From Laburnicola sp. R22_1 (taxonomy: Eukaryota; Ascomycota; Dothideomycetes; Pleosporales; Didymosphaeriaceae), in NCBI GenBank assembly GCA_014281115.1, contig JACONQ010000005.1:1116001-1180000 (forward strand): DNA of 64,000 bases, given 5' to 3'. Under the pieces are notes generated by a model that did not search any database, was not told the origin of the DNA, and saw only the letters and a program-made list of their open reading frames with translations. Below are positions 622 to 56,792 of this stretch, one piece after another. Within the stretch, counting starts at the first letter, position 1, and each line of letters opens with the position of its first letter. Position numbers and translations under genes: made by a program.

Positions 622-2456
622 TCACCAACTACCGCGACCACGACCGCGACCATGCCCACGGTTCGCGTTGAACCCACCTCTGCCGCGCCCTCCACCACGA
701 CCTCTGTTCCCGCCTCTGTGTCCACCACGTCCCCTATCATTACGTACAGAGTCCGCTCTAGGGCCCTTTTGCATCAATTGCCCTCGTTCTTCGTCCGACG
801 CATGGAAAGGGTTCGGTATTTGGAGTAGGCTGCAAAACGCTTGAGTGTGTGGATTGGAGTACTCTTGCGGGCCTTCTTGTACATGAATACCTTTGGTTGG
901 ATCATATACAGGCGCTGTGCGAGCGAAGTCCTCAGGAATAGTCAACTTCCTAGCTTTGACAATGTTTTCGTCTACCCATGCCATCTCTTTCTCGATTAAT
1001 GGCCGGTAATAGGCTTCTCCCATATCCTGGGGTACTCGAGCTTCTGGGCAACCCAAGCGTAGATCAGCTGCGAACGTACGCGTAATTGCGAGCCACTCTG
1101 GGTCATATTCTAGCTTAAGGGGTCGCTCGTAGTCAGCCGAGGATAGAGGAGCGACTTCCACGAGCTGGAGAAAGTGTCTATTGGGCAAGCACTTGTCTAA
1201 TGCGAGGAATTTCGTAGTCTTGTTCGTTATCTCTGGAGGAAATAGGAGCATGTGTGGGGCAGAGTAAGAGGGTTTGGCTGCACGCGTGAACGATTCGGGC
1301 AAGCCATGTCGAACGTCGTCTGAGGCGAGGTTATCTCGTCCTCTCTTCAGTGCTGATGTTTTGGGCGCAACCTCTTCCTCCAGGTCGAGATCGATCTCAG
1401 CGGGATCCTTGGGAGCTGGGTTGGGCGCAGCCTCTTCATCTAGGTCAAGATCAATCTCAGCGTCATTCTTGGGAACTGGGATGGTAGCTGTATCGTCCAT
1501 GTCCAAATCGATCTCGTTCTCGTTGGATGTCCTCTCGCTGCCAGAAACAGGGATCGCGGGCGTATCATCGATGTCCAAGCTATCATCGCCTTGGTTGGTT
1601 GTCATTGGGGCTGTGACATAGTCCGGGACGGTTGTCTGGGGCTGCAGGACATCTTCATGCTCCCACACAGCTGTATATTTGGTATGAAGATGAGCGCTAA
1701 ACCAGTGCCTAGGTCGTAACCGTTTCAAGACTTCGGTCGCCGCCACACTTCCAAGCTGACCACTCTTTGCGTCTTGTTCGAAATATGGTTTGAAGCGGAA
1801 AAGCTGCTTGTAATCGCCTTTCCACTCCATACCCTGAGGCCAGTCGTGACTCAGTCCGATATCCACTTGACTGCGCAGCTGAAGAAGCTTGCGCGTATCT
1901 AGTTCTCTAACGTGGTATATGCTCTTGACATCATCATTGTTGTATGGCAGACGTTCGTAGTGCGTCTTCCTGTAGTTGTATCCTTTCCAGATTCCGGAAA
2001 GACCAGCAATACGAAGTGGACCAATCCGGACAACATTCGCAGCTCCCATGTAGTAGATGTTAGGAGCAGCCCAACCTCCGTAATACAGCTCCCACATGTA
2101 ATTGCTGGCTTCGTGATTACCTCCGATGAATATCGTAAGGTAAGGAGCGGTCCGTGTGCCGGAGTAGTATTCATGAAAGTCATGCATGGCATAATACTTC
2201 GAGGGCATAGAGACAGCTTTGAGATCGTACGCGTTTCGAACAGCCTACATGGATAGTCAGTAATCATGTTGAGCGGAAGGAAGAGCCTATACAAGACCTG
2301 AAAGTCACCTCCAATGATCAACAGATCAACGCCCGGCCATCCCTTGAGCTCGCATGATTTCTTGACGGAGGCATAGATTTCATGCAACGTCCCGTGACCA
2401 CAGCCTTCGACGGCTATTCGCAGGCCGCTCCCTGTGGACTGTGTCAGTGATGCCAT
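622..2456 (-). CDS. DBR1: RNA lariat debranching enzyme DBR1
   Basis: Hydrolyses the 2'-5' branch of excised intron lariats in the nucleus, opening them for turnover. Two exons, 2298-2456 and 622-2244, around a 53-nt intron (starts GTCTTG, ends ATGTAG); 593 aa. The metallophosphoesterase metal ligands are visible in family order: EGCGHG (C19, H21), GGDFQ (D51), GGNHE (N96, H97), SHDWP (H186) and SAHLH (H238, H240). The DBR1 C-terminal domain follows a low-complexity acidic linker with repeated EIDLD blocks. The protein ends in an Arg-Gly-rich tail of about 35 residues, typical of RNA-binding RGG segments. The start ATG at 2456 lies just before the conserved domain. It is divergent from the RNase P/MRP-type gene, with about 300 bp between the starts. 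Identification is firm; the weak 5' splice site is inferred from the protein. Confidence 0.95.
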
Positions 2457-2753
2457 CCACTCGGTTGATCGCTATATTGTGAGTGAGGTTATATGAGAAG
2501 CTCCTAGAGAGCAGGTGTCGAGGAGGCGGTTGATCTGTTTTCATTTGGTGGCCAAGGCAACTACGGCTCATGCACACGTGGTAGATAGTACAAAAGGTGA
2601 AGGAGCCAGGGTTCTGTTTAAGGAAAAGCTAGCGTCGGCAGTCGGCGTTTTTAGTCCGAGCACGTGATTGCATCAACCCCAGTCGACCGTCTCAAGAATC
2701 CATCTCGGTTTTCGAGCAGACACCAGAGCTCATCAATACCAACCACGCATGCC

Positions 2754-3341
2754 ATGGACCCATCCGAAGCTCGATTAAAGTTTCTGAGGCAGGCAGCGTA
2801 TCAACTCACAGCCTCCGCCCCAGCTATTTCGGCAAATCTCGCGTCAACCTACAACAATCTGGTCACTGACATAGATGATGACCTGCAGCGGGCTAAGAAG
2901 GAATGGGACATGCTGCCGCGGGAAGTTTGTGGTGCTTGCGGCAACATAATGCTTCCAGGATGGTCAAGCTCCACCGTCCATCAATCGCGTCCGGCATCGA
3001 CGAAAAAGAAATGCGTGGAAACGCCAGAACGGTCCAAGAAACTGCTTGTGCACACATGCCTGAGGTGCGACCGGAAATCAGTGCAGTCTTTGCAATTGTC
3101 GAGGCCACCGAAACACGTCAACCCGAAGCCTGAGCGGACAATGGCCCGGTTCAAGGATATGGTAGATCTGAGGAACCAAGTCCAAGAAAACCAAGCAAAG
3201 GTCTTGAAGTCAGCGAATGCAACAAGCAAGCAAAGAAAGAAAACACGCAAAGGCGGGCTGCAGGCAATGCTCGATAAGAACAAAACCCAAAGCTCAGGAC
3301 AAGGTGGGCTTGGACTCGATTTGATGGACTTTATGCAATAA
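2754..3341 (+). CDS. RNase P/RNase MRP subunit, Rpr2/Rpp21/Snm1 family
   Basis: A small protein component of RNase P (tRNA 5' maturation) or RNase MRP (pre-rRNA cleavage). Single exon, 195 aa from the ATG at 2754, which sits in a near-ideal context (GCCATGG). The open frame extends upstream to 2664 but that part looks like leader. The N-terminal helix (EARLKFLRQAAYQL) is typical of the family. A zinc ribbon follows, built from CGAC near residue 62 and CLRC near residue 102. The lysine-rich C-terminus contains KGGLQAML and ends DLMDFMQ, as in Snm1-like fungal proteins. Sequence alone does not decide between the RNase P and MRP paralogues, so no symbol is given. Confidence 0.8.
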   Translation: MDPSEARLKFLRQAAYQLTASAPAISANLASTYNNLVTDIDDDLQRAKKEWDMLPREVCGACGNIMLPGWSSSTVHQSRPASTKKKCVETPERSKKLLVHTCLRCDRKSVQSLQLSRPPKHVNPKPERTMARFKDMVDLRNQVQENQAKVLKSANATSKQRKKTRKGGLQAMLDKNKTQSSGQGGLGLDLMDFMQ

Positions 3342-3629
3342 GGTCTTGGATATAGTCTTCGCCCGAACTCACGAAGCCGGGTGCGACCTGTTGCTGGAGA
3401 GTGGCAAGGTTTTCAGAATTGGGACGCCGTAGGGCTGACAGGGATCAGCCGCTGCGAACTGCAGGGAAAGCACCGGATCGAGCTAGAAAGGACCCCGCCA
3501 AATTCGCGGGGCTCAAAATCTTTCGCGTTTCGTCACTGCCCAACAGCCACAATCCGATACCGCAACCACAACTCCGGTCGGTCACATACACTTTACCTTT
3601 CATCTTATTGCAGTATACAATTTCTGAAG

Positions 3630-5201
3630 ATGGCGGCGCAACAGGTCCTTACAAAGGACTTGTTCGAGGATATGGGTCGCAAGGTGGCGGAGGCGAGTGC
3701 GCAAGGAAGCGACGTGGATGGTACCACGGTCGTTGATGAAATCAAAGAGACGCTGTGTATGAACTGTCACTCAGAGGATGTAAGTCGAACATCTTTACAT
3801 TCATACTAGACATAGCTGATTGTTAGGCATCCACGCGACTGCTCCTGACCAAGATACCCTTCTTTCGCGAGATCGTTATAATGTCATCCCAATGTCCAGA
3901 CTGCGGCTGGAAGAATGCCGAGGTGCAGCCCGCGGGCGAAATTCAGCAACGTGGCGTCAAGATGACTCTGAGAATTGACAACACCGAGGATCTGAGCCGA
4001 CAAATAGTGAAGAGCGATACGGCAGTATTTCGGGTGGATGACATCGACCTTGAAATCCCACAGGGCCGGGGACAACTCACAAATGTCGAAGGTGTACTGT
4101 CTATGGTTGCGCAAGATCTAGAACAGAAGCAGGATGAAAGGAAGGAGAAGGTGCCGGAGATGTACGAAAAGATACAAGGCGTGATACAGACTCTGAAGGA
4201 AATGGCCGCTGGCAAGAAGACGCCCTTCAAAATCACAGTGGACGACCCCGCCGGCAACTCATCGATCGAGCCTTCGACACACGACACATCCGCGAAGTAT
4301 TTCCGACACGAGTACCCTCGAAGTCCCGAGCAGAACGCAGCGCTAGGTCTAGGCGACACTTCAGGTGATGCGCCGCCTTCAGAGATGCGCCCCGAGTATC
4401 ACGCAAATCAGATGTACCCACAGATGCCGGATGGACCTATGGTGAACAACGTAGATGAAGAGGACATTGTGGAGAACCAGGTCTATTCGTTCCCCGCAAG
4501 TTGCCCGGGATGCACAAAGCCCTGCACAACGAATATGAAGATGGTTAACATCCCACATTTCAAACAAGTCGTGCTGATGAGCACAGTTTGTGAGCAGTGC
4601 GGATGTAGGTGATCCTTTGCTATTTTATTTAGCATCTACTGACAGTACGACAGACCGAAGCAACGAGGTCAAGACTGGAGGCGAAGTACCAGAAAAGGGA
4701 CGGCGCATCACCGTGTCTATCGAGAACAAAGAAGATCTGTCGCGAGACATCCTCAAGGCCGAATCATGCGCCATGTCATGTCCAGAGTTAAACCTGAGCG
4801 TCGAACCTGGAACATTGGGTGGCAGGTTCACGACCATTGAAGGTCTCCTCACTCAAGTCCGCGACGACCTTCGCTCTCAAATTTTTGATATGGACGGTGG
4901 TGGAGACTCGATGCAGACGGCTACCAAGGGAAAATGGGACAGCTTCTTCAGCCAGTTATCGTCAGCCATCAACGGTGAGGTGAAATTCAGCGTCATCCTT
5001 TCGGATCCGCTGGCCAGTAGCTACGTACAGAGCTTTGCTGCGCCAGAACCCGACGCGCAGATGAAGGTCGAGGAGTACGAGCGGACAGAGGAAGAGGAGC
5101 AGGACCTCGGCCTCCGTGACATGAAGACAGAAGACTACGCAGACGAGCAGCCGGTGTCGAACGGCGCAAGGACCAATGGCGGAACAACTAACGGTACGTG
5201 A
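3630..5201 (+). CDS. ZPR1: Zinc-finger protein ZPR1
   Basis: ZPR1 is a conserved chaperone-like protein that binds eEF1A and shuttles between cytoplasm and nucleus. Three exons: 3630-3779, 3827-4604 and 4654-5201; 491 aa. The introns are 47 and 49 nt, and the second is fixed by restoring CGYRSNEVK across the junction. The duplicated family architecture is plain: a first C4 finger (CMNC...CPDCGW) with its beta-sandwich, then a second finger (CPGC...CEQCGY) with a second sandwich. Both have the characteristic DLSR motif. The C-terminus is acidic. A GTACGT sequence overlaps the last codons and a TTTGCAG lies about 40 nt downstream, so an alternative last intron is possible; it would change only a few residues. 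It converges with the cyclophilin gene, with 116 bp between stops. Confidence 0.95.
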
Positions 5202-15050: not shown

Positions 15051-15748
15051 CAGTAGATCACCTTTTTGCAATCTGATAGAGACTACAAGGAATTAAGGAT
15101 GATACAGCTAGGAATAATTGGCTTTTTCGTGGCTGGAACCATAGTAATGTTGGACAAGTCTTCGTCTGTCATGCTCTTTCTTCTTATTCCAATGCGCTCC
15201 TGGTACGAGATGATCTGTTATGTGATAAGCTTTCTACTAGATGGAGGCACATTCAAGTGCAGCCATATTTGTTTTTATTAACCGTAAGGGGTGCATATCC
15301 TTTACGATTCTGATGTACTCTCTGTTTGCTCAAATTCTATCATGTTGGTTTACTAAGATACATAGAGGATACGTCTTACTTCATTCAAAAGCGTAATAAG
15401 AGCTACGCCGTAAAGGGGAATAGGATAGCCATATACAAAGCATGCGAAACCCAGTAAATTTTTCACACATGTAGCGTTGTAAAAAGTTTTAATAGAGAGG
15501 GGAAACGTTTACTGTCTAATGTTCGATGTTTAACGTTCAGTAGAATATTAGCTTAGAGATCGTTAGAATGACCACGATTCGCTCTGCTAAGCTCGTGAGA
15601 CGTTAACTCTTGTGCGTTGGTCATCTTACCCCGCTCCAATTGCTTAGACAGCATCAACCCTCTCTGAACATGTCAGCTGCATTCTGTCTGCTTTATGGTG
15701 CTCCATTATTTATTTTATATTCCAAAAATTTGCCATCAAAAATCATCA
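15051..15748. other. Moderately AT-rich intergenic DNA
   Basis: No genes seen. The composition (TA-rich, few C before A) hints at mild RIP or old transposon sequence upstream of the tRNA gene. Confidence 0.4.
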
Positions 15749-15764
15749 GGCAAGGTGGCCGAGT

Positions 15765-15816
15765 GTGAGTGTTTCCAATATCCGCTGAGCCGCATCCAGT
15801 AACTGACAGTCATTAG
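15765..15816 (+). other. Spliceosomal-intron-like insert in the tRNA D-loop
   Basis: The 52-nt insert begins GTGAGT, contains AACTGACA about 13 nt before its end, and finishes CATTAG. That is the size and signal layout of the protein-gene introns in this window. Excision exactly at GT...AG joins GAGT to GGTC and restores the conserved D-loop GG and the A-box. The insert lies 3' of the first A-box half (TGGCCGAGTG), which remains intact. Confidence 0.85.
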
Positions 15817-15838
15817 GGTCTAAGGCGCTGTGTTTAGG

Positions 15839-15860
15839 CAGGCTTCCGAGCAAGCATAAA
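15839..15860 (+). other. Canonical tRNA intron (37/38)
   Basis: A 22-nt insert directly after position 37 of the anticodon loop, the standard nuclear location cut by tRNA-splicing endonuclease. Its 3' end (ATAAA) can pair with the TTTA of the anticodon region, as in typical pre-tRNAs. Confidence 0.85.
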
Positions 15861-15880
15861 CCGCAGTCTTCACGGGCGTG

Positions 15881-15891
15881 GGTTCGAATCC
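15881..15891 (+). promoter_or_regulatory. Pol III B-box
   Basis: GGTTCGAATCC matches the consensus internal B-box exactly, within the T-arm. Confidence 0.9.
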
Positions 15892-15910
15892 CACCCTTGT
15901 CAAGCGCAAC

Positions 15911-15916
15911 TTTTTT
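15911..15916 (+). terminator. Pol III terminator (T6)
   Basis: A run of six T residues starting 9 nt after the discriminator base, the normal RNA polymerase III stop. Confidence 0.85.
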
Positions 15917-19109: not shown

Positions 19110-20599
19110 GGTCGTGGATGTCTGGTGTGATTTGTTGTGGAGTAGCGGTGGATGGAGAAAGGAAGAAAGAAGTCGGTGCCTGGCGCGGGGCATGGCTACT
19201 TTTTGTGTGCGCGCGAGCGAGGGCGCTAGCGCGTCCGAAGTGTGACTCACACGGCACAGGACGAGCAGCGCAGGGATGTGCTGCGTGGTGGATGTGGCTT
19301 AGCGACGGGGCTGCCAATCAGCGTGCAGAGTGGCGCTCGGCTTGCAATGCGCTTTCCCTCCCGCGTGCTAGCGCCCACTAGCGCCCACTAGCTGCGCGAA
19401 AGAGCTCTGTCAGACCGCAACGAAATTCCGCTCGCTGCGCACACGGTGCAGACGGCTGTGTGCCCTCGGCAGCAGCATATTGCCTTGACAGCGCACTGTG
19501 TTGATGCCCTTGCCCTTGCTCTCGCCTTCGCGGTGCCCTCGCTCTCCTCCTCACTCTCCTCCTCGCCCTCTGCCCTTGCCAGCCATCATCGCACTGCCAG
19601 CGTGGCCGGCCGCGCCATCATCCGGTGCCAACATCAGGCATCAACTTTTCGACATGTAGGGCGCGAATCAGCGCCGGCCTACCCCAGCAGCCTACAGTAG
19701 CCCAGCTGGGTGCTTGGAACCGGTGGAGGTGATTGCGAGCGCCAGACTAACGCCGCCTGCTGCGGAATAAGGATGCAAACGCCGACGGGAAAGAGGGCGG
19801 GAACCAGCAGCGCCCTTTTCCCTTTCCCTTGCACTCCGACTCGGACCTGGACATCACTATCGACGCGGCCGCGTGTTCCGTCTGGTTTCGCCCAGCAAGC
19901 GGTGTGTGAGCGAGTGCGCCCTTTGAAACGGACGGGGAGTCTGCATGCATCAGCCGTATGACTCCCCAGGCACGGAAAATCTATGGAACTCAGCCCCGAA
20001 ATATGCACTCAACGCCGATCCCCAGAGTCCAGTTCGCATTTCGCATTTCGGCTCCCAACCCCAGTCTTCCGCATAGATAGTCCAAGTACACAGTAGATAC
20101 TCTACGGGATATACGCAACGAGTGCTGATCATAGAAGCTCATATGCGATATTTGATCCGATCCTCTTCTTGCGCTTCCACCATGTCTCCGTTTTTCGGCC
20201 GCTCGCCGCTTCATGCGCGGCCGTAATAGCACACGGTGCACCGAGCAGGGTTTGGTTAGCTGATCTAAACGGATATTGTAGTCTGCAGCATCCAGGTGTT
20301 GCGCAAGTTATATGTGTGTGTTTTCCTCTGGCTATTCTCACCGAGAGGGACGTCAGCCGGCCATAGAAAAGCGTATAAAACGCTTAGTCATAAAGTTAGG
20401 AAGGGATAAGCAAAATGCCACTAGCCTTGTTAAGCGGCTACTCGTTTCCTTTGATTACTATTCTGGAGTCGGATTTTTATATATTCCAAGAATCTGCAGG
20501 AGAGCTATCACAGCCAATGCAGTGTCTCCTACAACGCGTACTACTAGTATCCTTTTGCACCCGCCTGCGACTCTAAAACACGCGTAATAAAATGCGAGC
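19110..20599. other. 5' flank of cpcA and left edge of AT-rich block
   Basis: About 1.5 kb with no convincing gene. It is GC-balanced to about 20,330, then drops quickly into AT-rich DNA. It probably holds the long leader and promoter of the bZIP gene. Confidence 0.5.
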
Positions 20600-21020
20600 G
20601 GCTTGTAGTATATAGCATCTGATAGTCCGTATTCTATGGTGCCGCTTGTTGCGGCTGAGCTCTACTCTCCTAGTAATAGTTATATACAGTAACGCTATAA
20701 GCTGCGCTAATTACTTTTAATTACTTATTATAGTTGCCTAAGCGCTATTTTTATAGCTAGATCTAGAGGAGTAGTAAGCGCTAAGTTACTAGCTTTTATT
20801 CTATTTACTATATATTCTTTTATTATTACTCTTTTAAAATAAAACTTATATTAGTATTAAGCTTATTAATACTATAGTTAAAGTAGGCGTAGTACTACTC
20901 TATTTAGTAATAGTGGTAGCTATAAGTATTCTTTATAAAGTAGTATTAGTAGTTATTATTATAATTAGTGTTAGTATTATAAGTAGTATAAGGTAAAGTT
21001 TATAAACTAGTTAGTATTAT
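20600..21020. other. RIP-decayed DNA left of the retrotransposon
   Basis: Unidentifiable AT-rich sequence with no coding or repeat structure I can name. Confidence 0.4.
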
Positions 21021-21025
21021 AGTAG
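21021..21025. repeat. Target-site duplication (left), AGTAG
   Basis: AGTAG immediately precedes the left LTR and is repeated at 28369-28373 after the right LTR. A 5-bp duplication is standard for Ty3/Gypsy integration. Confidence 0.9.
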
Positions 21026-21603
21026 TGTAAATAGCAAGGACAGAGAAATAAATTTACAGTAACTAGGTAGTAATATTAAAACTACTTAGCATAGAGTTAG
21101 CAGCGAGGCAGAGGTAATATAGTTACGTAACTAGCATCTCGCTAAGACAGACACTAAGAGAGAGAAACAATATTCCGCCAAAATAGACGCTAAGAGAAAG
21201 AACTAATATCCTGCTAAGACAGACGCTAAGAGAAAGAAACAACATCCTACTAAGACAGATACTAAGAGAGAGAAATAATATCCCGCTAAGAGCAAACATC
21301 CTAGGAAGGATAAGGTAGCGTAGGAGGGACGTAGTCTAGAAGAATTATAGGACGGCAAAGATGAGGACTATATAAATCTATAGAATCTTCTTAGGTATAA
21401 GTCTTTATAGTTAATTCTTCTTAGTACTATCTCCTATATAGATTAGTACTAGTTATTCTATCTTGTTTAGAATTAGAAGAGCCTTATATAAGACTATTAA
21501 TATCTCACTTAATTTCTCCTAAAGCCTCTAATATAGATGCCTTAGAGTTTATCTTATCTCCCCTAATCTAGATTAGGACAAGGTACGTAACCCTATATTA
21601 ACA
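21026..21603 (+). repeat. 5' LTR (578 bp)
   Basis: Begins TGTAAATAG, ends ATTAACA, and has the same length as the right copy. Differences from the right LTR are mainly C/T and G/A, as RIP produces. It contains four 36-bp tandem units at 21141-21284. Confidence 0.93.
21141..21284 (+). repeat. 36-bp tandem repeat x 4 inside the 5' LTR
   Basis: Four units of about GCTAAGACAGACGCTAAGAG plus 16 more bases, exactly 36 bp apart (starts 21141, 21177, 21213, 21249), followed by a partial unit at 21285. The same array, also four units, is in the 3' LTR. Confidence 0.95.
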
Positions 21604-24600
21604 CTTTAACTACCTAATAAGTTTTAAAAAAAATAGTTAATACACTATAACAACGCCAGTAAGTGCTTAAGCAACTACTAGTAGTGGCTTAGCAGTAACA
21701 CCTACTAGTAGTAGTACTAGTAGACTAACTATAAATACAACTAGTGTAATAGCGGTATAGGCTAACTAGATTTAACAGTTAGAAGTATAGGTGTTAGAGC
21801 TTCTAGCGGCTATTACAGCACAATAGATAGTAGAGGCAGAGAAGACTATTTAACTATCTGTAGAAAAGTATAGTAGAGGAAAAGGACTAGAAAAGTTTCT
21901 TACTAATATAGAATTGTACTATTAGTATAATTTAGCTTTGTTTTCTATAAAATAAGATAAGGTTCTTGCAGCCAGCCTACATCTAAGGGAAAGGGCAGCT
22001 AAATAGCTTTAACTGTTAGTAAATAACTTTATTACTAAGAATAAGATTAGTAAGATATAGGATAAGACTAAGCTTATATTTAAAATATGGCAGGACTTTA
22101 AGAAATAAATACGGGTTATATTTAGAGAAGTAGATAAGGAATAGTAAGCCAAATAATAGATTTAATAGTTCTAACAAACAATATTAGTTAGTAAATATGT
22201 CTTAGAGTTTAGATAACTATAGTCTAAGGTTAAGTAGAATAACGCAGTATTAAAGGCAGCCTTCTATTACAAACTAAAGGACAGTATTAAGGACGCGTTA
22301 TTACTTTATAATAAACTAAACAACCTAAGCAAGTTAATTAAAATCGCGGCACGTATTAATAACTGTCTCTATAAGAGAATATAGGAAAAAAAATACGGCA
22401 AAGCCAAGATAATTACTAAGCCAAAGAATAAACTTAGGACAAGGCGATACTATAATAATAATAGAGATATTATTATGGCCAGAAAAGTCTAGGAGAAGGA
22501 AGAATCTTTATAGAGGAAAAAACTAACTAAAGAACTAAGAAAGGACAACAGTCTATTAAAAGAAAAAAGACAAAGGCAATACAACAATCGCGCATGTCTA
22601 GCATATAGCAAACAAGACTATTTTAAGCGAAACTACTTAGAGAAGCAAAGGATTGGTAGAGCTAGAGCTATTAAAGTAGGAATAATTAGGTCCTACAGAG
22701 AAATAACTCTGCCAGACCTAGACAAGAAGCACGCGACTCTTAACTAGATAGAGTGTAAGATAGTAGTTAATAACAAGTATTATAGAACCTATAAAGAAGA
22801 CTAAGAGATTGTAGTTTAATAACCTGGCCATCTAGACCACTTTCTAATTATAATAGAAGAATATAGAGTGCAACTGGCCTATAGAAAGAATAAGAATTCT
22901 TGCTATATTTACTATTAATAGGATTGGAAGGACTAGTATAAGCTACTAGGATAGTACTAATGCTATAACAACACCTATAAAACTTATAGGACGCATAAGT
23001 ATACAATAGGATAGTGGCTAGTAGAACTAGAAGAAGAAAATGCGAACAAAACACTCTGTAAATAAGAGGATTATAGAGTTAGATATAAAGAAGAATATAA
23101 TAATTTACTAAAATAGATAGACTATAATAAAAAATAATGCTTAACGCATACCTACGAGTAGAAAGAAGCATTGACTAGTAGGCATTAATCTAAATATAGA
23201 CACCTAAAGCCTTAGGAGTGTTAGGTATAGAATTGCTAAAGACACTAGAATAGTAACACAAATAAGAAAGAAGACTAGCGTGTAAAAGATGCATGGAACT
23301 ATTATAAATAATAGTATTAAGATATAGACACAGACCCTTATTTAGATAAACCTTAGATAAAGTGTAACAAAGATAACAATTAACATTATTAGGAAATAAA
23401 AGAATTAGCAGGATGCTTTCCACCTAACAAAGCCCTTAATAAGGTACTATAGTAGTAACAATACGCAACTATATTATAGATAGAGTGTTATAAGGACTAG
23501 TGTTAAATATATTTTAACGCTAAATAGGGCGCGGGATAGTTCCTAAAGGGCCCAAAACTAACAAAAAACTAGAAAGCTCTTAGTAATAGAGTTACGCTAG
23601 TAAGAGCAAAAGAACAACTCTTTATAAGGTACATTATAACGCGAAAACACATCTAAAGGTAGATATACTAGTATAAGGACACAAAATTCGCGCGCTTATA
23701 AATAGTAGCGCTAAGTAGACCTTTATATTACCACAAATAGTAGAATAATACAATATACTCTATTAGAATAAGCTAAAATCTATAAAGATTATACTTGCAG
23801 AAAACACACTACTAGAATATAGAAATGGCGTAATACACCTTAAGAACTAGAAAGTATTACTAGAACTCGCTAAATTAGAGAACTGACGACAAATTAATAT
23901 TATAGATCTTAGAGAAGAAGACATATTAATTAAATACAATTGGCTTAGAAAGCATAATCCTACTATTAATTAGTAGAATAAAATATTATAAAGCTAATAG
24001 CCTATAAATAAGGTCGCTTCGCAACAAAGATTAGAATAAAGAGGATCTGCAAGGCAAGTCGCTTTAGACCACAATTTATAGTTAAGCCTAATAACTTATA
24101 GTATACTCTAGCTAGGTAGGGTTAGCAAGATATTAATAATAAAAATAATGCGCATATATAGGAAAGACCCTTAGAAGGTAGAAGTTATCTAGATATAATA
24201 AGTTGCAACTATAGAGGATAAACCCTAACCTAATATACCTTAGAAATATAAGGAATACTATGAGCTCTTTAAGAAGCATAAAAGCAATAATCTACTAGAG
24301 CACTAGAAGTAAAATTATAAGATTTACCTAGAGAAAGAAGCAAAGCTTAAGTCTAGATATATATACTAGCTATTAAATAGCTAGTAGAAAGAGCTAAAGA
24401 CGTATATTAATAAGAATCTTATAAGAGGATTTATATAATAGAGTGGAAGCTTAATAACCTTACTAATTCTATTTGTACTAAAAAAAAAAGTAAGCTAAGA
24501 CTCTATATAGACTATAGACAGCTAAACAATACTGTAAGAAAGGATATATACCCCTTACCTCTTATCTAAGAACTTATAGATTAGCTCTAGAAAGTTAAGT

Positions 24601-27600
24601 AGATTATAAAATTCGATATTTGTAAGAGATATTACTAAATACAAATTGTAAAGGAATTTAAATAGCTTACTGCCTTTAAAACGCGATATGGCCTGTTTAA
24701 ATATATAGTTATGCCTTTTAAATTAATAAACGCGCTAGCGATGTTTTAGACAGTTATTAACAAAGCACTATATAAATACTTAGACGTATTTTATATAGCG
24801 TACTTAGACAACATACTAGTGTACTCTAAGAAATTACTTAAGGAGTATATGGAATATATAAAGAAGGTGCTTAATAAGCTAAAGTAGTATAGGTTACTCT
24901 TATAGCTAGAAAAATGTAAATTCTACATTATATAAACCGGATATCTTAGATTTATTATTAGACAAGATAGCATTACTATAGACTCTTAGAAAGTTGCAGC
25001 TATATAGGACTAGCCAGTTCCGAAAATAGTTAAGGATATGCAATTCTTCCTAGGATTTGCGAACTTCTACTAAAAGTTTATTATGGGATACTTAAAAACC
25101 ACAGCGCCTCTTATAGAAATAACTAAGAAAGAGACAAAATTCTTATAGGACTAGGAACAGCAAGTAGCTTTTAAGAAGCTAAAAGAACTGTTTACTATAG
25201 TACTATTACTATAGTTATAGAATCTAATACAACTAATATAGATGAAAATAGATATATTAGACTACGCCTTAGAAGCTATACTTATATAGTAGGGCGAAGA
25301 TAAAAAATAGAGACTAATATTCTACTATTTAAGAAAGTTCTTAGAAGCATAACTTAACTATAACATTTATAACAAGAAACTATTAGCGATAATAGACTTT
25401 TTTAAATAATAGAAACCACAGCTTATAGGAGCTTAATACTAGATTAAGGTATTCTTAGATTATTAGAACCTTATAAGTTTTATATCGACTAAAAAACTTA
25501 ATAGATAATAGGTTAGATGGGCAGAAATAATAGCAAACTATAATTTTAAGATCTACTATCGCTTAGAATTGCTAAACAGGGCAGCAAACGTCCTTAGTTA
25601 AAGTTTAGACCTTAGGAAGATAGACTAACCTAAGATACACAATGCGGTCTTATAAATAGAAATAGACAATGCTCTTTAATACAACTAACTATAATTAGTA
25701 AATGTGACAATATTCTAATATAAAGAACTACAAGTTAAGAATTTTTAGAACTACTCCTAACTAAGTCAGAAACAATAAAAGCAGTACAACTTAAACAAAT
25801 AGATTTAAGCGACTACAAAAAATCATAATAATTAGGGCAGGATTAAGGTGCTAGATTATATGGCTAAGATCTAGATTAGGTTATAATACAAGTTAAAGGG
25901 CTAGGGATATCTAGGGATTAATAAAACAACTCGATAGATTTAACTAGAATACAATATTCCACATATACAGGATAAGGTAAAGAAGGTTATAGGTAACTAT
26001 TTAATATATGCAAAGAATAAGCCTAAGAGATATAAGCCCTATAGGTTATTATAACCCTTAATACTACCTATGCGACTATAGACTAGTGTTATAATAGACT
26101 TTATAGTAAAGCTCCTAATATTAATAGAACCTGGATCTAGATAACTATGCGACTTAATATTGATAATTATAGACTAATTAACCAAATAGGCATACTTTCT
26201 ACCTATAAACAAGTCTATTACAGTAGAGGATATGGCTTACAAGATTATAAGAACGCTTATTGCTAACTATGGCCTACTAAAAATTTTTATTATAGATCGC
26301 GATAAGCTGTTTATATGTAAGTACTAGAAAATATTATTAGTAAAACTAGGGGTTATTCGCAAGCTCGCGACAATAGCTTACGCTTAGACAGACAGCCAAA
26401 TAAAACAAATTAACTAGATACTCGAATAATACCTATAGATATATATTAATAAGTTATAGGACAACTGGGTTAAACTATTACTAACAGCATAATTAGCGTA
26501 TAATAGTGTGAGATTTAATATAATAGGACGCTTACTACATTACACAAACTATAAATATGAGCCGGTTGCTTATAGAGATTTAAAAGATATTAAGAGCCTT
26601 TTAGTATTGGCTAATAAAAAGGCCTAGCTTATACAGAAACTGTATAACAAATTAAGTAAATAGATAGCTTAAAGAAATCTTACAACAGCTAAATAAGCAA
26701 ATAAACACAGGCTTAAGGGACTAATTCTTAAGAGGAGGGACAAAATTCTTCTATTATAAAGGAATCTAAAGACTAAACGACTATCTAAAAAGCTTAACCA
26801 CCTCTAAGTAGGACTATTTAAAATCCTAGAGGAATAAGGACTAGTAAACTATAAGCTAAAGTTACTAAAGAAGACCTATATACACTCTATTTTTTACAAA
26901 TTACTCCTTAAACCAGTACTACTAGACGCCAAAACTAAAACACAACTTAAGCTTAAAGACAAAGAGTATAAGGCTAAAGAGGTTAGAAACCTATAGAAGT
27001 TTAAACATTAGTAGAAATACTTAGTTAAATGATAAGGATGGCTAGAGAGCTAAAACATATAGGAACCTATATAAAACCTTATAAACTGCACAAGGTTAAT
27101 ATAGTGGTATTATTAATAGAATTTAGAAATGAGATATCTACACTAGTAAGAAAAGAGGCAAAGAAGGAATCGCTTAGGGAATTAGCCTATAACTAGCCTA
27201 GGTTAGTTAATAAAGGTTCGAGTTGCAGTAATTTAGGAGAGGCGTTAGTATCTATACTCTTAGGATCTACCTCTTATTCTAACTACTCTACTACCTTAGC
27301 AATACAAAGATTATAATAAGCAAACAAACGTTCTTTCTCTTCTACCTTAGCAAGATTTAACTCTAGACGCGCAGCTTTGGCTTTGGACTAAAGCAAAGTA
27401 AGATGCTTTTAATACTTTTTGAATTAGATTTACTTCTACTCTTTCTTAGAGACCTATAAACTATAGTCCACGTAAATAGTAATACAACTAGCGTATTAAC
27501 TAGAAGTAGTATCTACAAAATAGCGCAGTTTCTCTTTTTAACACTGCATACACCCAGACGCTATTTTAAGACCTTAACTAGACATATATTCTACACAAGT

Positions 27601-27790
27601 ATGCCGCTTAGCGGTTAACAATAGTTTGCGAACCTTAGGTATAGTTAGAAAGGCAAAGGGGATTAAGAGGAGCATATAATATAATAAGCAAAGTAAGGCA
27701 CACACACCTTTATATACGCACAACACCTTATAAGGTAGCATAGCACAAAGCGTAAGAATATTAGAATAATAACTATAAAAGAAGGGCAAG

Positions 27791-28368
27791 TGTAAATAGA
27801 AAGGGTAGAGAAATAAATTTGCAGCAACTAGGTAGTAATATTAAAGCCACTTAGCATAGAGTTAGTGGCAGGGCAGAGGTAATATAGTTATGTGACTAGC
27901 ATTCTGCTAAGACAGACGCTAAGAGGGAGAAATAATATCCCACTAAGATAGACGCTAAGAGGGAGAAACAATATCTTGCTAAGACAGACGCTAAGAGAGA
28001 GAAATAACATTCCGCCAAGATAGACGCTAAGAGAGAGAAACAATATCTCGCTAAGAGCAAACATCCTAGGAAGAATAAGATAGCGTAGAAGGGACGTAGT
28101 CTAGAGGGATTATAGAATAGCAAAAATAAGGACTATATAGATCTATAGGATCTCTTTAGGTTTAAGTCTTTGTAGTTAATTCTTCTTAGTACTATCTTCT
28201 ATATAGATTAGTACTAGTTATTCTATCTTATTTAGAATTAGAAGAGCCTCACACAAGACTATTAACATCTTGCTCGATTCCTTCTAAAGCCTTTAACATA
28301 GACACCTTAGAGTTTACCTTACCTCCTCTAATCTAGATTAGAATAAAGTACGTAACTCTATATTAACA
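27791..28368 (+). repeat. 3' LTR (578 bp)
   Basis: Same length and termini as the 5' LTR, preceded by a purine-rich AAAAGAAGGGCAAG that may be the polypurine tract. Confidence 0.93.
27906..28049 (+). repeat. 36-bp tandem repeat x 4 inside the 3' LTR
   Basis: Units start at 27906, 27942, 27978 and 28014. Reverse translation gives a spurious 75-codon minus-strand ORF with a 12-residue repeat. Confidence 0.95.
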
Positions 28369-28373
28369 AGTAG
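28369..28373. repeat. Target-site duplication (right), AGTAG
   Basis: Matches 21021-21025 exactly. Confidence 0.9.
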
Positions 28374-29229
28374 CTATGCCTACTAACCTTGCTTAGCTCG
28401 CTTGTAACGCGCTAATCCCTTTTTATTAATATTTTAAAACGCTTTTTTATATATATAATAGTAGAAAAGATATCTACTATTATTATAATATTTTTATTAG
28501 AAACCCCTTAGTCGTAAAAAAACTATAGTAGCTATAAATAATAATAATATATATATATATATATATAAGATTTAGTAGGGCTACTATTTCTATTAGTAAT
28601 AGAGGTGCGTAGTAGGCATTTTATACTAGTAAAGTTAGCTATATAGAGAGCTGTTAAATTAGCTATTAAAGTTAATTTTAGTTAAGTGTTAGGGGAGTAA
28701 GAAGAGCTAAGCGATTAACTCTACACTATATGCCTACCTATAGTTAAGTAGCTATATTTCTAGGCCATTACCTTAATATCCTCACTCTAACTCTAATAGC
28801 AACTAATAATAGTGTTAATTACGTCTATAGTAGTATACGTCTACTTAAAGATAGGTAATATAATAAGCCTCTATATTAGGGCTAGTATTTAAATTATTAC
28901 TAGCGTTGCTTCTATAAACCCCTTGCGCTGCCCCCTTCTACCTGCCTATACTTACTTCTTAATTATCTCTTAATGCCTTTAATCTATTTTTTAATATAAC
29001 TCTATTTCTATTCGCTATTTATGCTTTACTATAAAGTTAGCTACTTCCTCTTTGTAATATATAGCTTTATAAGATACTATTATTAAGTTCTTTAAGCTAT
29101 TAAAATTATGCTTCTTTAAATAAAAGAAGCTTATCTATTAGTGTCTTAGTTACAACTATAGTAGTATTATTTAATATTTTAGTATCTTAAAAATACTATT
29201 ATCTTATAGTTTATAAGCTAGAGATCTAT
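28374..29229. other. RIP-decayed DNA, unassigned
   Basis: Includes a short (TA)n run near 28,547-28,568. It may contain the upstream part of the kinase-like pseudogene that follows, but I cannot read it. Confidence 0.4.
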
Positions 29230-29700
29230 TAGGCAATATATTATAAGGTAGAAATAGGTTCTACTTTCTCTTAGGCTTTATTAGGTTAAGTAACTTTTTA
29301 ATACTATGTAGTTTATTTATTTAAGAGGCGTGCTCTATAGCAATATAGTATATAGTAATATTTTCCTTAATAATAATCTTAATATAAAGCTTAGTAATTT
29401 CGCTAGCTTAGCTATACTAGTAGATAACCTTCTACTACTTATCTATTATAAAACTAGTTACAAACTTTCTTATAAAGACATCTTAATACGGACTAAACTC
29501 TTTACTCTTAGTTCTACTATTTATAAGATAATAACTAGCTTAAAGCTATATAAGAATATACCTAATTATAAAGTATTTACTACTTTCTCTAAGAGTCTCT
29601 ATCCTAATCTAGAATCTATCTCTATATTTAGAAATATAATTATAAGATACTAGAGGCAGCGTTATATAACTATAGAAGATATAATAGTACTTACTAGCCT
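29230..29700 (+). pseudogene. RIP-decayed protein kinase-like gene fragment
   Basis: The + frame from about 29,330 stays open for ~107 codons and resembles the C-lobe of fungal kinase-like proteins. A catalytic-loop-like NIVYSNIFLNNNLNIKLSNF (expected HxDI..N.FLD..L..K..DF) is followed by YYKTSYKLSYKD (activation/APE region) and LFTLSSTIYKIIT (expected LFALGSTLYEIMTG). A tail resembles ..YPNLESISIFRNII.. . The catalytic HRD/DFG-type residues have been altered by G-to-A changes. Upstream sequence fits an N-lobe poorly and has stops. It is probably a host or element-borne kinase-like gene caught in the RIPed block. Confidence 0.5.
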
Positions 29701-29717
29701 TTCTACTAAGCACGTCC

Positions 29718-30078
29718 TATTACCTTTTTTTACACTCTATTTTCTTTATTTACGCCTTTTACCTTCTTAAAGGCGCCTTTTCTAGTTAGTATTAGTATAG
29801 TAGTTAGTATAGGCCTATATCCTACGATGTCCTCTATATGTAAGGGCGATACACGGCCTTATAGGGCAAACCTCTTAGGGATAGCTAGTATAGTTAAAAG
29901 AGATAACTAAATTTAAACTATACTAAGATAGGGGATAAGAAAGGGACCTAGAGGACCCTTACTTATATAGTGGGCGGCGTAGGGCACAGGCCCATGCTAA
30001 TCACGCGCTAACACTAACTAGAAAAGGCGCCTTCTATAAGGTAAAAGGCGCTATTAGGGTGTAAAAGGAAAGGTAATA
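29718..30078. mobile_element. 361-bp element with ~70-bp terminal inverted repeats
   Basis: The left arm 29718-29796 and right arm 30008-30078 are inverted copies. Shared blocks include TATTACC at the ends, GCCTTTTACCTT, AGGCGCCTTTTCTAGTTAGT and a final TTAG. The ~210-bp centre is unrelated to any coding sequence. Size and structure fit a MITE-like non-autonomous DNA transposon. No clear target duplication could be fixed. Confidence 0.75.
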
Positions 30079-30863
30079 GTGAATAACTAGTAGGAAGGCA
30101 GGCACGAACTATTACACTATATAAGAAAGGGCCCCTTATATTCTTTTCTTATTTACTATTTTAAAATAGTATTAATTTAACTAGCTCTTTTAACTATTCT
30201 AGCTATTTCTAATAGGTTAGCCATATAAGGCTGTGTACTACTCTTATATTATTCTAAGACTAACCTTTTTATTTAGCTATAGATAGTAATATAATATCTA
30301 CTTCTTTTTTAAGACGCTACCTATAAGTTGTTAAATTAGTAAAGATTTTACTTTATTAGTTACTTTAGTACTAGGTAGCTATTATACTACGCTAGGGTTT
30401 ATTAAGAGAGGCTACTTCTAAGTCTCTTCTTTACTTATTATATAAGGGTAGAAACTTTATTAGTTACTAGAAAGGATTTCTAGCGCTAAGGAGTTTATAT
30501 TTTACTACTCTAAGGTCTATTAAAAGAGGCTACTTTTAAGTCTCTCCTCTACTTAATATATAAGAGTAGAAACTTTATTAGTTACTTTTATAAAAGACTA
30601 GTTTAATAGGTTATACTACTACAGTTTATTAAGAGAAATTACTTTAAATTATAGAAGTAGTAATACTACTTTACGCTAGTAGAATTAAGATACTACTAAG
30701 GTCTATTTAAAGAGACTAGAATTCTAAGTCTACTAGATACTAGTTATAGTATAAGTAGTAGAAAGTTCTATTAGTTACTTCTATAAGACTTTATACTCTA
30801 GTTTAATAGGTTACATCTAGATTTACTAAAAGAGATTCTTTTAGTCTATTAAGAGGCCACCCT
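30079..30863. repeat. Decayed imperfect tandem repeats
   Basis: From about 30,355 several units of roughly 110-130 bp recur, each with a form of TTATTAAGAGAGGCTACTT, then TAAGTCTCT, then AGTAGAAACTTTATTAGTTACT. Copies are recognisable near 30,400, 30,510 and 30,700, with more degenerate ones between. The unit origin is unknown. Confidence 0.55.
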
Positions 30864-31552
30864 AAATAATAATAAATAATAATAAATAATAATAAATAAT
30901 AATAAATAATAATAAATAATAATAAATAATAATAAATAATAATAAATAATAATAAATAATAATAAATAATAATAAATAATAATAAATAATAATAAATAAT
31001 AATAAATAATAATAAATAATAATAAATAATAATAAATAATAATAAATAATAATAAATAATAATAAATAATAATAAATAATAATAAATAATAATAAATAAT
31101 AATAAATAATAATAAATAATAATAAATAATAATAAATAATAATAAATAATAATAAATAATAATAAATAATAATAAATAATAATAAATAATAATAAATAAT
31201 AATAAATAATAATAAATAATAATAAATAATAATAAATAATAATAAATAATAATAAATAATAATAAATAATAATAAATAATAATAAATAATAATAAATAAT
31301 AATAAATAATAATAAATAATAATAAATAATAATAAATAATAATAAATAATAATAAATAATAATAAATAATAATAAATAATAATAAATAATAATAAATAAT
31401 AATAAATAATAATAAATAATAATAAATAATAATAAATAATAATAAATAATAATAAATAATAATAAATAATAATAAATAATAATAAATAATAATAAATAAT
31501 AATAAATAATAATAAATAATAATAAATAATAATAAATAATAATAAATAATAA
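30864..31552. repeat. Perfect 10-bp satellite, AATAAATAAT x 68
   Basis: Sixty-eight perfect copies from 30871 to 31550 with a partial unit on each side, 689 bp in all, without a single variant. The array has no C or G on either strand, so RIP cannot mutate it. Confidence 0.97.
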
Positions 31553-44960: not shown

Positions 44961-47769
44961 ATGGCTCCCTGCGCGAGCTCGCCGGCGCTTCCAGAGAACG
45001 AATACGACATCGGCGCCGCCCTGTTCGGAGAGGATGATGCCATTGGAAACGGAGGAGGATCTACCTTGGACCTGGGACTCGACCTAGACGCCGGCGGCGA
45101 CGATGGCTCCGACGACGAGGCTTTCATTGCGGCCACGCAGGCTGCTTCCAACAGAAAGTCCTCGAATCTAAAAGGCCACACGGTCAAAAAAGGCGGAGGT
45201 TTCCAAGCAATGGGTCTCAATGCAGCGCTTCTCCAGGCTATCACGCGCAAGGGCTACAAGGTCCCGACTCCGATACAGCGCCGCGCTGTGCCTCTTATAC
45301 TGGATCGGCAGGACGTGGTTGGAATGGCTCGTACAGGTTCCGGAAAGACTGCGGCCTTCGTCATACCCATGATCCAGGCGTTGAGGGCGCACTCGGCCAA
45401 ATTTGGTGCCCGCGCTATTATCATGTCACCCTCGAGAGAACTGGCTTTGCAAACCCTGAAGGTGGTCAAAGAGCTGGGGCGAGGTACAGATCTACGGACG
45501 GTGCTGCTGGTAGGTGGTGATAGTCTAGACGAACGTATGTTCATCCAAATTCAACGAAGAGCATACAAGACGCTGACAGGTGACTAGAGTTCAGCTCGAT
45601 GACTACTAATCCTGACATTATCATTGCGACACCAGGTCGATTTCTCCACCTGAAGGTCGAGATGGGCTTGGACCTGTCTTCAGTGAGATACATTGTATTC
45701 GATGAGGCGGATCGCTTGTTTGAAATGGGATTTGCTGCCCAACTTGCCGAGATCCTCCACGCTCTGCCCACGTCAAGACAGACTCTACTCTTTTCTGCTA
45801 CTCTCCCTAAAACCTTGGTCGAATTTGCGCGAGCTGGACTTCAGGAGCCACGACTGATCCGGCTTGACGACTCTAAAATCTCACCGGATCTCGAAAGTGC
45901 ATTCTTTACTGTCAAGAGTGCCGAAAGAGATGGAGCGCTTCTATACATACTTGACAAGGTCATCAAACTGCGTACTGGCGAGACAGAAGCTGCGAAAAGG
46001 GCCAAGAAGACAGACGCAAAGAGCAAAAAGCGCAAGCGAGCTCCCGAAGGATCTAACCCAGTGGACTCTCCAACACCGAATTCAACGGTTATTTTTGCAG
46101 CTACCAAGCACCGAGTTGAGTATTTAGCCAGTTTCTTGAAAGCTGTTGGATATTCTGTCTCGTACGGTGAGTTTGCCTTGTCACGCGCAGCTACGGCTCA
46201 TACTGACCATTATCAGTGTATGGAAACCTTGACCAGACGGCTCGAAAACTTCAAGTTCAGGATTTTAGAGCAGGTTTGACAAATGTGCTTGTGGTCACCG
46301 ATGTTGCAGCACGTGGTCTTGATCTGCCATACCTCGCAAATGTTATCAACTACGACTTTCCTTCGCAACCCAAGATTTTCGTGCATCGCGTGGGTCGAAC
46401 AGCTAGAGCAGGAAGAAAGGGCTGGAGTTACAGTCTGATCCGGGATTCTGACGTTCCCTACCTGATCGATCTCCAATTGTTCCTTGGACAACCTCTTGTT
46501 TCCGAAAAAAATTCGAACACGGAAACAAATTACGCGCAAAATGTAGTGGTGGGCACATTCGTTCAAGACGAACTTGCACCTGAGGTTGAGCTTGTCAACA
46601 GGCTACATGAGGCCGACGAAGACTTGATTAACCTCCAGATTGTGGCGGGGAAGGGCGAAGCCCAGTACACCAGGACCAGAAATTCAGCCAGTAGTGAATC
46701 CGTGAAGAGAGCGAAGCAATTACTATCTTCCCGGACTCTATCAAACACTCATCTGCTCTTCCGCAACGATGTACAGGAAACGCTACGAGAAAAAGAGAGA
46801 ATGTTGGAAAGGATCAGCTCTTTCCGGCCCACCGAGTCGATATTCGAAATCGGAAATCGTGGCGCCGGTGGCGAAGCGGCCGAGATCATGAAGAAAAGAA
46901 GGCAGCAGATCGACAAGATGAAGCAAAAACAAGCGAACCAGTCTAATGGCATGTCCGATGGTCTAGGCGCAGAAACGGCGACATCGGACGCTACGGCCGA
47001 ACTTGACGCTGCCTCAGAAGACGGGGAGGATCTTGCAGATGCGGACTTTGCGTCTGAATCAGATGACCTTGAAATCTCCGTATCGCAGCCAGCCGATCGT
47101 GAGGGTGGTAAAGATGATTGGCAGAATTCCGAGTTCTTCATGTCATACCAACCGAAAGGTATTAACGTGGCTGAAGAACGAGGTTACGGGGTTCACACGG
47201 GTTCTTACAATACGGCACAGCAAGCCTCAAACTTCGTTGAGAGTGCCAGGGCGGCGCAAATGGATCTTACGAACGACGAGGTACGCGGATTTGCGGAGCC
47301 TAGCAAAGCTCGAGGTATGCGCTGGGATAAAAAATCCAAAAAGTATGTCGCCAAGGCGAACGACACGGACGGCTCCAAAGGGGCGAAGATGGTGGTAGGC
47401 GAAAGTGGCCTCAAAATCGCTGCCAGCTTCCGTAGCGGGCGGTACGATGACTGGCGCAAGTCGAACAAGGTTGGACGTCTGCCACGTGTCGGTGAACTCG
47501 AGAAATCGGGCCATGCAGCGCCTCGCAATAGCGGCCGCCACTACAAGCACAAGGCGGAAAGGGCACCGAAAGAGGCCGATCGATACAGAGACGACTATTA
47601 CACCCAGAAGAAGAAAGTAGCGGACGCAAAGGAGAAGCGCATCGGGAAATTCAGGGATGGTGGCGCCAAAAGCGAACTGAAGGGCGTTGACGATGTCCGC
47701 AAGCAACGAGAGCTCGATGAGAAACGCAAGGCGAAAAACGCAAGACCTTCCAAGAAGAGAAAATTTTGA
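44961..47769 (+). CDS. DBP10: ATP-dependent RNA helicase DBP10
   Basis: DEAD-box helicase for 60S ribosome assembly in the nucleolus (DDX54 homologue). Three exons: 44961-45534, 45588-46166 and 46217-47769; 901 aa. The introns are 53 and 50 nt. The start is ATG 44961 ([22 protein letters not shown]); the frame is open further upstream but is not conserved-looking. Motifs: Q-motif region GFQAMGLN, motif I ARTGSGKT (~res 122-129), SPSRELA, TPGR, DEAD (~230), [13 protein letters not shown] and [10 protein letters not shown] (~440). A Lys-rich insert lies near residue 340. The DBP10 C-terminal signature is present ([33 protein letters not shown], ~res 745-800), followed by a basic tail ending PSKKRKF. 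Confidence 0.95.
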
Positions 47770-56087: not shown

Positions 56088-56792
56088 TCAGCCCACCACC
56101 TTCATCTTCTTCTTTTTCTTCTTGCCATCCTCAGGGCCTTTTCCCTTCTGAAAGTCTCTCCAGCTATTGATGCGCGTGTCTCTAGTCTTCTCCCACGCAT
56201 CCTCAAGCTCCCTCTTCCGCTTCCGCTCCGCAATCTCCTCCTCCTCCTTGCGCTGCGCCCTGCCCTCCTCCCTCAGCTGCGCCTCCATCTGCCTCTTCTT
56301 CCGCTTCTCGTTGTCCATAATCACCCACGTCGTCTTCTCGCGCCACGCCTTGGCAAACTCTTCGCCCCGCGTCTCCTCGTCGTCGGCCGTGAGCTTGCGC
56401 TCCCGCATCAGCAGCATGCGCGCATCGGCAATATGCTCGTCCAGCTCGGTGCGCAGCTTCTCATCCATGAGGGTCCCCTGCGCTTTCTTCAGACGGTCAA
56501 AGGCCTCGGGGGCTTTGGGATTGGGCGTCTTATCCGGATGGATGAGGAGCGATTTGTTGCGGTAGACCTTTTTGATGTCGGACTCGGGGACGCCTGGCTG
56601 GAGGTCGAGGACGGCATAGGCGTTGAGCTTGAAGATGGAGAGAATGCGGTCGATTTCGGCATCCTGTGAGCTGGCTGTTAGCATGGTGTACACAGGGCAA
56701 TGCGGTAGTAGGTGGAATCGTACCTTGTCGAGCTCTCGGCCGGTGGCGAGAAGCTCGGCCTCGATGTCGACCTCCTTCTCGGCGTCGGCCAT
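56088..56792 (-). CDS. J-domain protein, DNAJC8/Spf31 type
   Basis: Hsp70 co-chaperone of a spliceosome-associated family. Two exons, 56724-56792 and 56088-56663; 214 aa. The 60-nt intron (GTACGA...GCTAAC...CTCACAG) is in frame and stop-free, so its retention would add 20 residues. Splicing joins GRELDK to DAEIDRILSIFKLNAYAVLDL, the conserved DNAJC8 N-terminus. The J domain spans roughly residues 40-105 with the essential HPD in LLIHPDKTPNPKA. A long charged coiled coil follows (EKRKKRQMEAQLREEGR...), and the protein ends in a Lys-rich tract before MKVVG. It is divergent from DBP4, 198 bp between starts. Confidence 0.92.
   Translation of the reverse strand: MADAEKEVDIEAELLATGRELDKVRFHLLPHCPVYTMLTASSQDAEIDRILSIFKLNAYAVLDLQPGVPESDIKKVYRNKSLLIHPDKTPNPKAPEAFDRLKKAQGTLMDEKLRTELDEHIADARMLLMRERKLTADDEETRGEEFAKAWREKTTWVIMDNEKRKKRQMEAQLREEGRAQRKEEEEIAERKRKRELEDAWEKTRDTRINSWRDFQKGKGPEDGKKKKKKMKVVG

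Follow-up and report, generated by a model that had tools for sequence, protein, structure and literature searches.

Probable spliceosomal introns in nuclear tRNA genes of the fungus Laburnicola sp. R22_1

The window analysed here, a stretch of 64,000 nt, is part of contig C22 of the Laburnicola sp. R22_1 genome, which was surveyed over 63.9 Mb in 26 contigs. At positions 15749-15902 it carries a tRNA-Leu(TAG) gene with two inserts, one of 22 nt at position 37/38 and one of 52 nt in the D-loop. An earlier note, made from the letters alone, had described both; the coordinates that it gave for the larger insert (15765-15816), its GTGAGT start and its TAG end proved exact. The parts of the gene and of its promoter are the following:

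15713..15721, +, TATA-like TTTTATATT, read by eye from the sequence and unscored
15733..15739, +, CCATCAA upstream of the tRNA gene, containing YATCA
15749..15764, +, exon 1: acceptor 5' strand, T8, G9 and 5' D-arm to position 16
15756..15766, +, A-box-like TGGCCGAGTGT, 10/11 letters against TRGYNNARNGG despite spanning the 5' splice site
15765..15816, +, D-loop insert of 52 nt with U2-type intron signals: 5' site GTGAGT at 15765-15770, branch site AACTGAC, 3' site TAG at 15814-15816
15817..15838, +, exon 2: G18G19, remaining D-arm, 5' anticodon stem and loop TTTAGG (anticodon TAG)
15839..15860, +, ordinary 37/38 tRNA intron of 22 nt
15861..15902, +, exon 3: C38, 3' anticodon stem, long variable arm, T-arm, acceptor 3' strand and discriminator A
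15881..15891, +, B box GGTTCGAATCC, 11/11 letters
15911..15916, +, T6 run, pol III terminator

The acceptor stem pairs GGCAAGG (15749-15755) with CCTTGTC (15895-15901). As had been predicted, GT/AG excision of the 52 nt rebuilds the D-loop, yielding GGCCGAGTGGTCTAAGGC, and ARAGORN, which finds no tRNA at the unexcised locus, reports an end-to-end tRNA-Leu once the insert has been removed. With the 22-nt intron at the canonical 37/38 site, the anticodon loop reads TTTAGG+C and the anticodon TAG; this reading of the anticodon rests on the canonical placement, because ARAGORN slid the 22-nt intron and labelled the anticodon TAA. The sequence displays the features of a functional tRNA gene, namely a cloverleaf, A and B boxes, and a T-run terminator. 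The 52-nt insert precedes G18 and thus lies off the canonical site that the 22-nt insert occupies; it has the 5' site, branch site, 3' site and host-like size of a U2-type intron, and the A of its AACTGAC is 10 nt from the intron end. Of 27 uninterrupted tRNA genes tested (out of 64), 13 have YATCA no more than 40 nt upstream, as do 4/8 split ones; among random 40-mers it occurs in 5667 of 100,000. Rfam, run over the whole window with E up to 1, matched nothing, the tRNA-Leu(TAG) gene itself included, and exact 12-mers of the 52-nt intron had no shared copy elsewhere in the window.

Four mRNA introns of the window were placed by protein continuity with family sequences:

4605..4653, +, intron of the ZPR1 gene, 49 nt, GTAGGT..TACTGAC..CAG
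45535..45587, +, intron of a helicase gene, 53 nt, GTATGT..CGCTGAC..TAG
46167..46216, +, second intron listed for the same helicase gene, 50 nt, GTGAGT..TACTGAC..CAG
56664..56723, -, mRNA intron, 60 nt, GTACGA..TGCTAAC..CAG

The helicase gene is presumably DBP10-like, and the gene with the 60-nt intron is one that we take to be DnaJ-like. In all four introns (49-60 nt), the A of a CTRAC lies 10-14 nt before the 3' end, which is YAG. The claim that the tRNA insert matches such introns in size is borne out, with 52 nt set against 49, 53, 50 and 60 nt. The gene content of the window is fungal, as shown by a cluster protein of the Zn(2)-Cys(6) type; a bZIP match falls just below the Pfam cut-off. 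A 20-kb block (20001-40000) has a GC content of 20-37%, the rest of the window 47-60%, a composition of the kind that repeat-induced point mutation of transposons leaves in fungi.

Further copies of the Leu gene were sought with patterns drawn from its arms. The Leu D-arm pattern (up to three mismatches) matched one place in the genome (L033), where no intact tRNA lies, and the Leu T-arm pattern (up to two mismatches) matched 20 places. Because two of these besides Leu(TAG) itself, L060 and L065, proved to be split tRNAs, a genome survey was begun, in which an Rfam scan (63 of 2627 candidates scored) was combined with T-arm patterns and B-box-plus-T-run patterns; with this coverage, all tRNA gene totals are lower bounds. 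Dropped before counting were 14 loci on contig C19, which are mitochondrial, and two in a mitochondrial-like insertion on C24, and two further C24 matches to the tRNA model fell outside the fetched set. The C24 matches form a cluster of four at C24:1269204-1288732, on a nuclear contig, and are putative mitochondrial-type tRNAs in inserted mitochondrial DNA. Subtracting L060 (the unspliced Arg gene), L076 and L085 from 67 scored rows leaves at least 64 clear uninterrupted nuclear tRNA genes, of which 52/64 have an ordinary 37/38 intron. A tRNA-Thr(CGT) gene (L102, C26:1133041) has an unusually long insert of 99 nt at that ordinary site. Altogether, at least 72 clear tRNA genes were counted, eight of them split off 37/38.

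At least eight nuclear tRNA genes thus bear GT-AG inserts in the D- or T-arm. The insert is thus not peculiar to one gene. The earlier note had proposed a search of other tRNA genes for GT..CTRAC..AG inserts in the D-loop; the survey yielded seven more genes of the same design. They are given below with the position of the T-arm match as locus position and a slash at each splice site:

Window, tRNA-Leu(TAG), D-arm, GGCCGAGT/GTGAGT..TAG/GGTCTAAGGC, 52 nt
C21:3459077, tRNA-Leu(TAA), L105, D-arm at the same site as Leu(TAG), GTACGT..CACTAAC..TAG, 49 nt
C10:1483233, minus strand, tRNA-Ile(AAT), L100, D-arm, TTAGC/GTGAGT..TACTAAC..CAG/TCAGTTGG, 57 nt
C5:1723671, tRNA-Arg(TCT), L060, D-arm, CAATG/GTGCGT..AACTAAC..TAG/GTAGCGC, 59 nt
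C9:1578595, minus strand, tRNA-Pro(TGG), L120, T-arm, CCTGG/GTAAGT..TGCTAAT..TAG/GTTCGAATCCCAG, 55 nt
within C22:85895-86042, minus strand, tRNA-His(GTG), L114, T-arm, CTGGG/GTAGGT..TACTGAC..CAG/TTCGATTCCCAG, 77 nt
C12:1617774, minus strand, tRNA-His(GTG), L143, T-arm at the same site as L114, GTAAGG..TACTGAC..CAG, 69 nt
C10:276136, tRNA-Phe(GAA), L125, T-arm, CTGTG/GTGAGT..AGCTAAT..TAG/TTCGATCCACAG, 54 nt

The inserts, of 49-77 nt, share a common set of signals. The 5' site is GTRNGT in seven of the eight and GTAAGG in the remaining one. Every insert ends in YAG and has a CTRAY whose A lies 10-14 nt before that end. The His and Phe inserts are at 53/54, and that of Ile is at 11/12, inside the D-stem. 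Cloverleaf stems are intact and T-run terminators present in 8/8 genes. A box letters number 10-11/11 in the split Leu, Arg, Pro and His genes, 8/11 in Ile and 9/11 in Phe (9 also when spliced), and B box letters 8-11/11, with the intron AG replacing promoter letters in the T-arm cases; in several split genes the intron's own GT or AG serves as promoter letters.

The spliceosomal look that had been ascribed to the Leu(TAG) insert, with its GTRNGT, CTRAY and YAG, is rare by chance. The full motif GTRNGT..CTRAY..YAG occurs in 19 of 3,000,000 segments that were drawn at random from the window with the lengths of the inserts, as against 7/8 inserts, and a relaxed motif (GT as 5' site, AG as 3' end) in 907 of 3,000,000, as against 8/8; the pool for both counts was the window itself, its own introns included. 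The junctions were examined by blind excision, in which any 40-100 nt were removed and the products ranked by a simple cloverleaf score alone. In five of the eight genes (Ile, Pro, both His and Phe), the GT-AG cut was among the 1-4 top ties of 1716-3795 cuts. The Arg gene gave 58 tied best cuts, two of them GT-AG, and in both Leu genes a cut other than GT-AG scored higher (30.7 vs 28.9; 31.1 vs 29.3). The cloverleaf score alone therefore leaves several options for the joint in the two Leu genes and in Arg, and the Leu junctions, for which GT-AG is outscored, rest on the consensus D-loop together with the splice signals. ARAGORN found a tRNA in 0/8 split genes before excision and in 8/8 after it; since it also accepted many shifted excisions, the exact joint cannot be read from its calls. 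Two of the genes, His L114 (36.4 bits) and Pro L120 (30.6 bits), are picked up by the Rfam tRNA model even unexcised. Uninterrupted genes supply matching joints for Ile and Phe: Ile(AAT) L077 reads TTAGCTCAGTTGGTTAGAGC straight through, its joint TTAGC/TCAG being that of the split Ile gene, and Phe L124 reads CTGTGTTCGATCCACAG, with the joint CTGTG/TTCG of split Phe. For Pro(TGG), an uninterrupted gene is found (in L120) at a distance of 1 kb from its split counterpart, from which it differs in its other arms. On these sequence grounds, the 52-nt insert is very probably a U2-type spliceosomal intron in a nuclear pol III tRNA gene, and at least seven further genes of this genome carry one.

Another reading is that these are non-canonical tRNA introns of the kind found in a red alga or in nucleomorphs, removed by the tRNA splicing endonuclease, and that their GT-AG look is accidental. 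The positions give it some ground: the introns of tRNA-Ile(UAU) from Cyanidioschyzon merolae, described in excerpts of PMC9602550 as lying at 12/13, 37/38 and 53/54, overlap with the sites seen here (53/54 in His and Phe, 11/12 in Ile). It is nevertheless very unlikely. The strict archaeal form of the bulge-helix-bulge, with all 4 central and 2+2 outer pairs, was found at the junctions of 0/8 genes (in Leu(TAG), the pairs number 2, 0 and 1), and an accidental GT..CTRAY..AG in 8/8 inserts sits poorly with its frequency in random segments.

That the genes are decayed, with chance insertions that are never removed, is highly improbable. In its favour, D- and T-arm insertions in eukaryotes mostly affect one of many synonymous genes and are taken as pseudogenes, according to a review (PMC4090602), and uninterrupted genes of the same anticodon were indeed found here for Ile, Pro, Phe and His. 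Against decay stand the intact stems, T-runs and splice signals of all eight genes and the two split His loci, whose exons are identical. The survey also found no other gene for Leu(TAA), Leu(TAG) or Arg(TCT), and the anticodons TAG, TAA and TCT are absent from the 64 clear uninterrupted nuclear genes. For Leu(TAG), an intact copy, which the earlier note had advised looking for, was found neither with the Leu D-arm, T-arm and joined-exon patterns nor among those 64 genes; the joined-exon DNA query is an insensitive one that missed Leu(CAG), which has the same T-arm. The pseudogene that the note had allowed for is weakened by the seven further split genes and by the split U6 gene described below. 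Finally, removal by self-splicing or as some other kind of intron, without a spliceosome, has next to no probability: no supporting point was found, the inserts measure 49-77 nt (52 nt in Leu(TAG)) where the catalytic core of a group I or II intron takes well over 200 nt, and the window gave no Rfam match (E up to 1), a weak argument because Rfam misses tRNA-Leu(TAG) too.

Between the two split His genes, the introns have diverged through much of their interior but keep GT, TACTGACTG and AACAG. A common introner family was considered and rejected: among 91 intron pairs compared, only these two introns were clearly alike (0/2000 shuffles), and the 5/2000 shuffles of the Leu(TAG)-Phe pair are not significant over 91 pairs.

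The U6 gene of the same genome (L122, C9:1677817) is split as well, reading GTACTTCGGTACATTTGGTCAATTTGAAA/GTACGT..GTGCTAACAGCAACGCAG/CGATACAGAGAAG, with the intron signals GTACGT..GTGCTAAC..CAG. The Rfam U6 match lacks the first 33 model positions, which is consistent with the split. A B-box-like motif lies downstream, and a second intron (GTACTC..TATACTAAC..CAG) is likely near the 3' end. Since U6 is split, mRNA-type introns in a pol III RNA seem to be tolerated here. An inverted partial U6 copy adjoins the gene (C9:1677500-1678500) and retains a piece of that second intron (28 nt, 93%), which marks it as a DNA-level copy.

The earlier note had named some fungal U6 genes as the only case known to it of mRNA-type introns in pol III transcripts. 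Such introns are known not in U6 alone but also from U3 and from the rRNA genes of lichen fungi (PMC5832005, PMC8527467). Spliceosomes are described as able to process transcripts of pol I as well as of pol III (PMC8527467, PMC10484740), and U3 and U6 as so far the sole small structured RNAs in which introns are known to be frequent (PMC5832005). Fission-yeast U6 matures via an mRNA-type intron (PMC10484740), and such introns in fission yeast and other fungi resemble ours in being U2-type introns of a small structured pol III RNA (PMC10484740, PMC5832005); they differ in that U6, unlike tRNA, is a spliceosome component, for whose introns an origin by reverse splicing near catalytic nucleotides has been proposed. 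The introns of fungal U3 snoRNA genes are likewise of the normal spliceosomal type, their host is again a small structured RNA, and they are present in some paralogues and not in others, but that RNA is U3 rather than tRNA (PMC5832005). Lichen fungi harbor spliceosomal introns in rRNA genes, thus in a non-mRNA transcript from which they are removed in the cell, and in yeast an intron of 57 bp was spliced out of rRNA made by pol I; there the polymerase is pol I and the host rRNA, whereas here they are pol III and tRNA (PMC8527467). Eukaryotic tRNA introns off 37/38 have been reported from nucleomorphs and C. merolae, the excerpts stating no spliceosomal character (PMC4090602, PMC4033280). The tRNAs of C. 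merolae and cryptophyte nucleomorphs resemble ours in combining D- or T-arm introns with a 37/38 intron and in sharing site 53/54; by contrast, no GT-AG or branch site is mentioned for them in the excerpts, those of Guillardia theta measure 3-24 nt, and for C. merolae a bulge-helix-bulge and the tRNA endonuclease are proposed, the mechanism being otherwise called unknown (PMC4090602, PMC9602550). Among the matches listed from the PMC open-access literature, none describes nuclear tRNA genes with spliceosomal introns. The intron type is known, and tRNA as its host is new as far as those listed matches go.

Under standard decoding, only Leu(UAA) reads UUA and only Arg(UCU) reads AGA. Both codons are used in the window; the 732-codon helicase ORF at 57307-59502, for example, has 3 UUA and 3 AGA. 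As no uninterrupted gene was found for either tRNA, genes with these codons would be unreadable if Leu(UAA) and Arg(UCU) were left unspliced, barring a further copy that the survey missed. The split tRNA genes are probably functional. It is likely, and we hold this with good confidence on the basis of the gene sequences, that spliceosomal introns have colonised nuclear tRNA genes and that at least eight of the 72 clear tRNA genes need the spliceosome; that translation depends on mRNA splicing, Leu-UAA and Arg-UCU being the sole decoders found for UUA and AGA; and that two splicing machines, unrelated to one another, are required to mature each of pre-tRNA-Leu(UAG), Leu(UAA), Arg, Pro and Phe.

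A plausible course of events would begin with transcription of the split gene by pol III; TFIIIC could bind, since most letters of the promoter survive the insertions. The nuclear spliceosome would then remove the D- or T-arm intron as a lariat, and the rebuilt elbow would permit T-arm modification, end processing and export, steps that would come later because they need the rebuilt arms. In a separate step, the tRNA endonuclease and ligase would take out the 37/38 intron. In C. merolae, the anticodon intron is believed to go last, after those of the D- and T-arms, and Pus4 is inactive on precursors with a T-arm intron (PMC9602550). As to their origin, the introns probably entered tRNA genes that had been uninterrupted; reverse splicing into a tRNA, with the product then copied back into DNA, is one possible route.

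Besides these eight genes, three loci with tRNA-like ends and T-runs, L076 (C1:1421276, minus strand), L085 (C8:517900) and L121 (C12:2354543), gave no convincing solution with one or two GT-AG introns; Rfam calls L085 a tRNA (31.7 bits, cut-off 29). As genes for tRNA-Trp(CCA) and tRNA-Tyr(GTA) were not found in the survey, these three loci may represent additional tRNA genes with a larger number of splits. Three other loci, L097 (C3:583137), L133 (C2:803611) and L145 (C20:629001), have a TATA-like element upstream, a B-box-like motif and a T-run, with no tRNA seen, and are candidates for other pol III RNAs; on L097, Rfam (E up to 0.1) found nothing. By eye, 58 of the 96 listed B-box-pattern rows belong to a dispersed family ending like AGTTCGAATCTCGCCCTCTCCCCCTCTRGTTTTT (e.g. 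C1:49402, C4:339175 and C26:148889), perhaps a SINE with a B box.

If the splicing proposed here is true, several consequences would follow. Finders restricted to 37/38 introns can miss such genes, so that tRNA sets look incomplete. Filled and uninterrupted tRNA genes would stand side by side, for studying intron gain outside mRNA. The spliceosome would work on very short pol III transcripts, and the decoding of certain codons would be tied to mRNA splicing. The gene sequences suggest, in short, that the machine that splices mRNA must also finish some tRNAs, a job ascribed to quite different enzymes.
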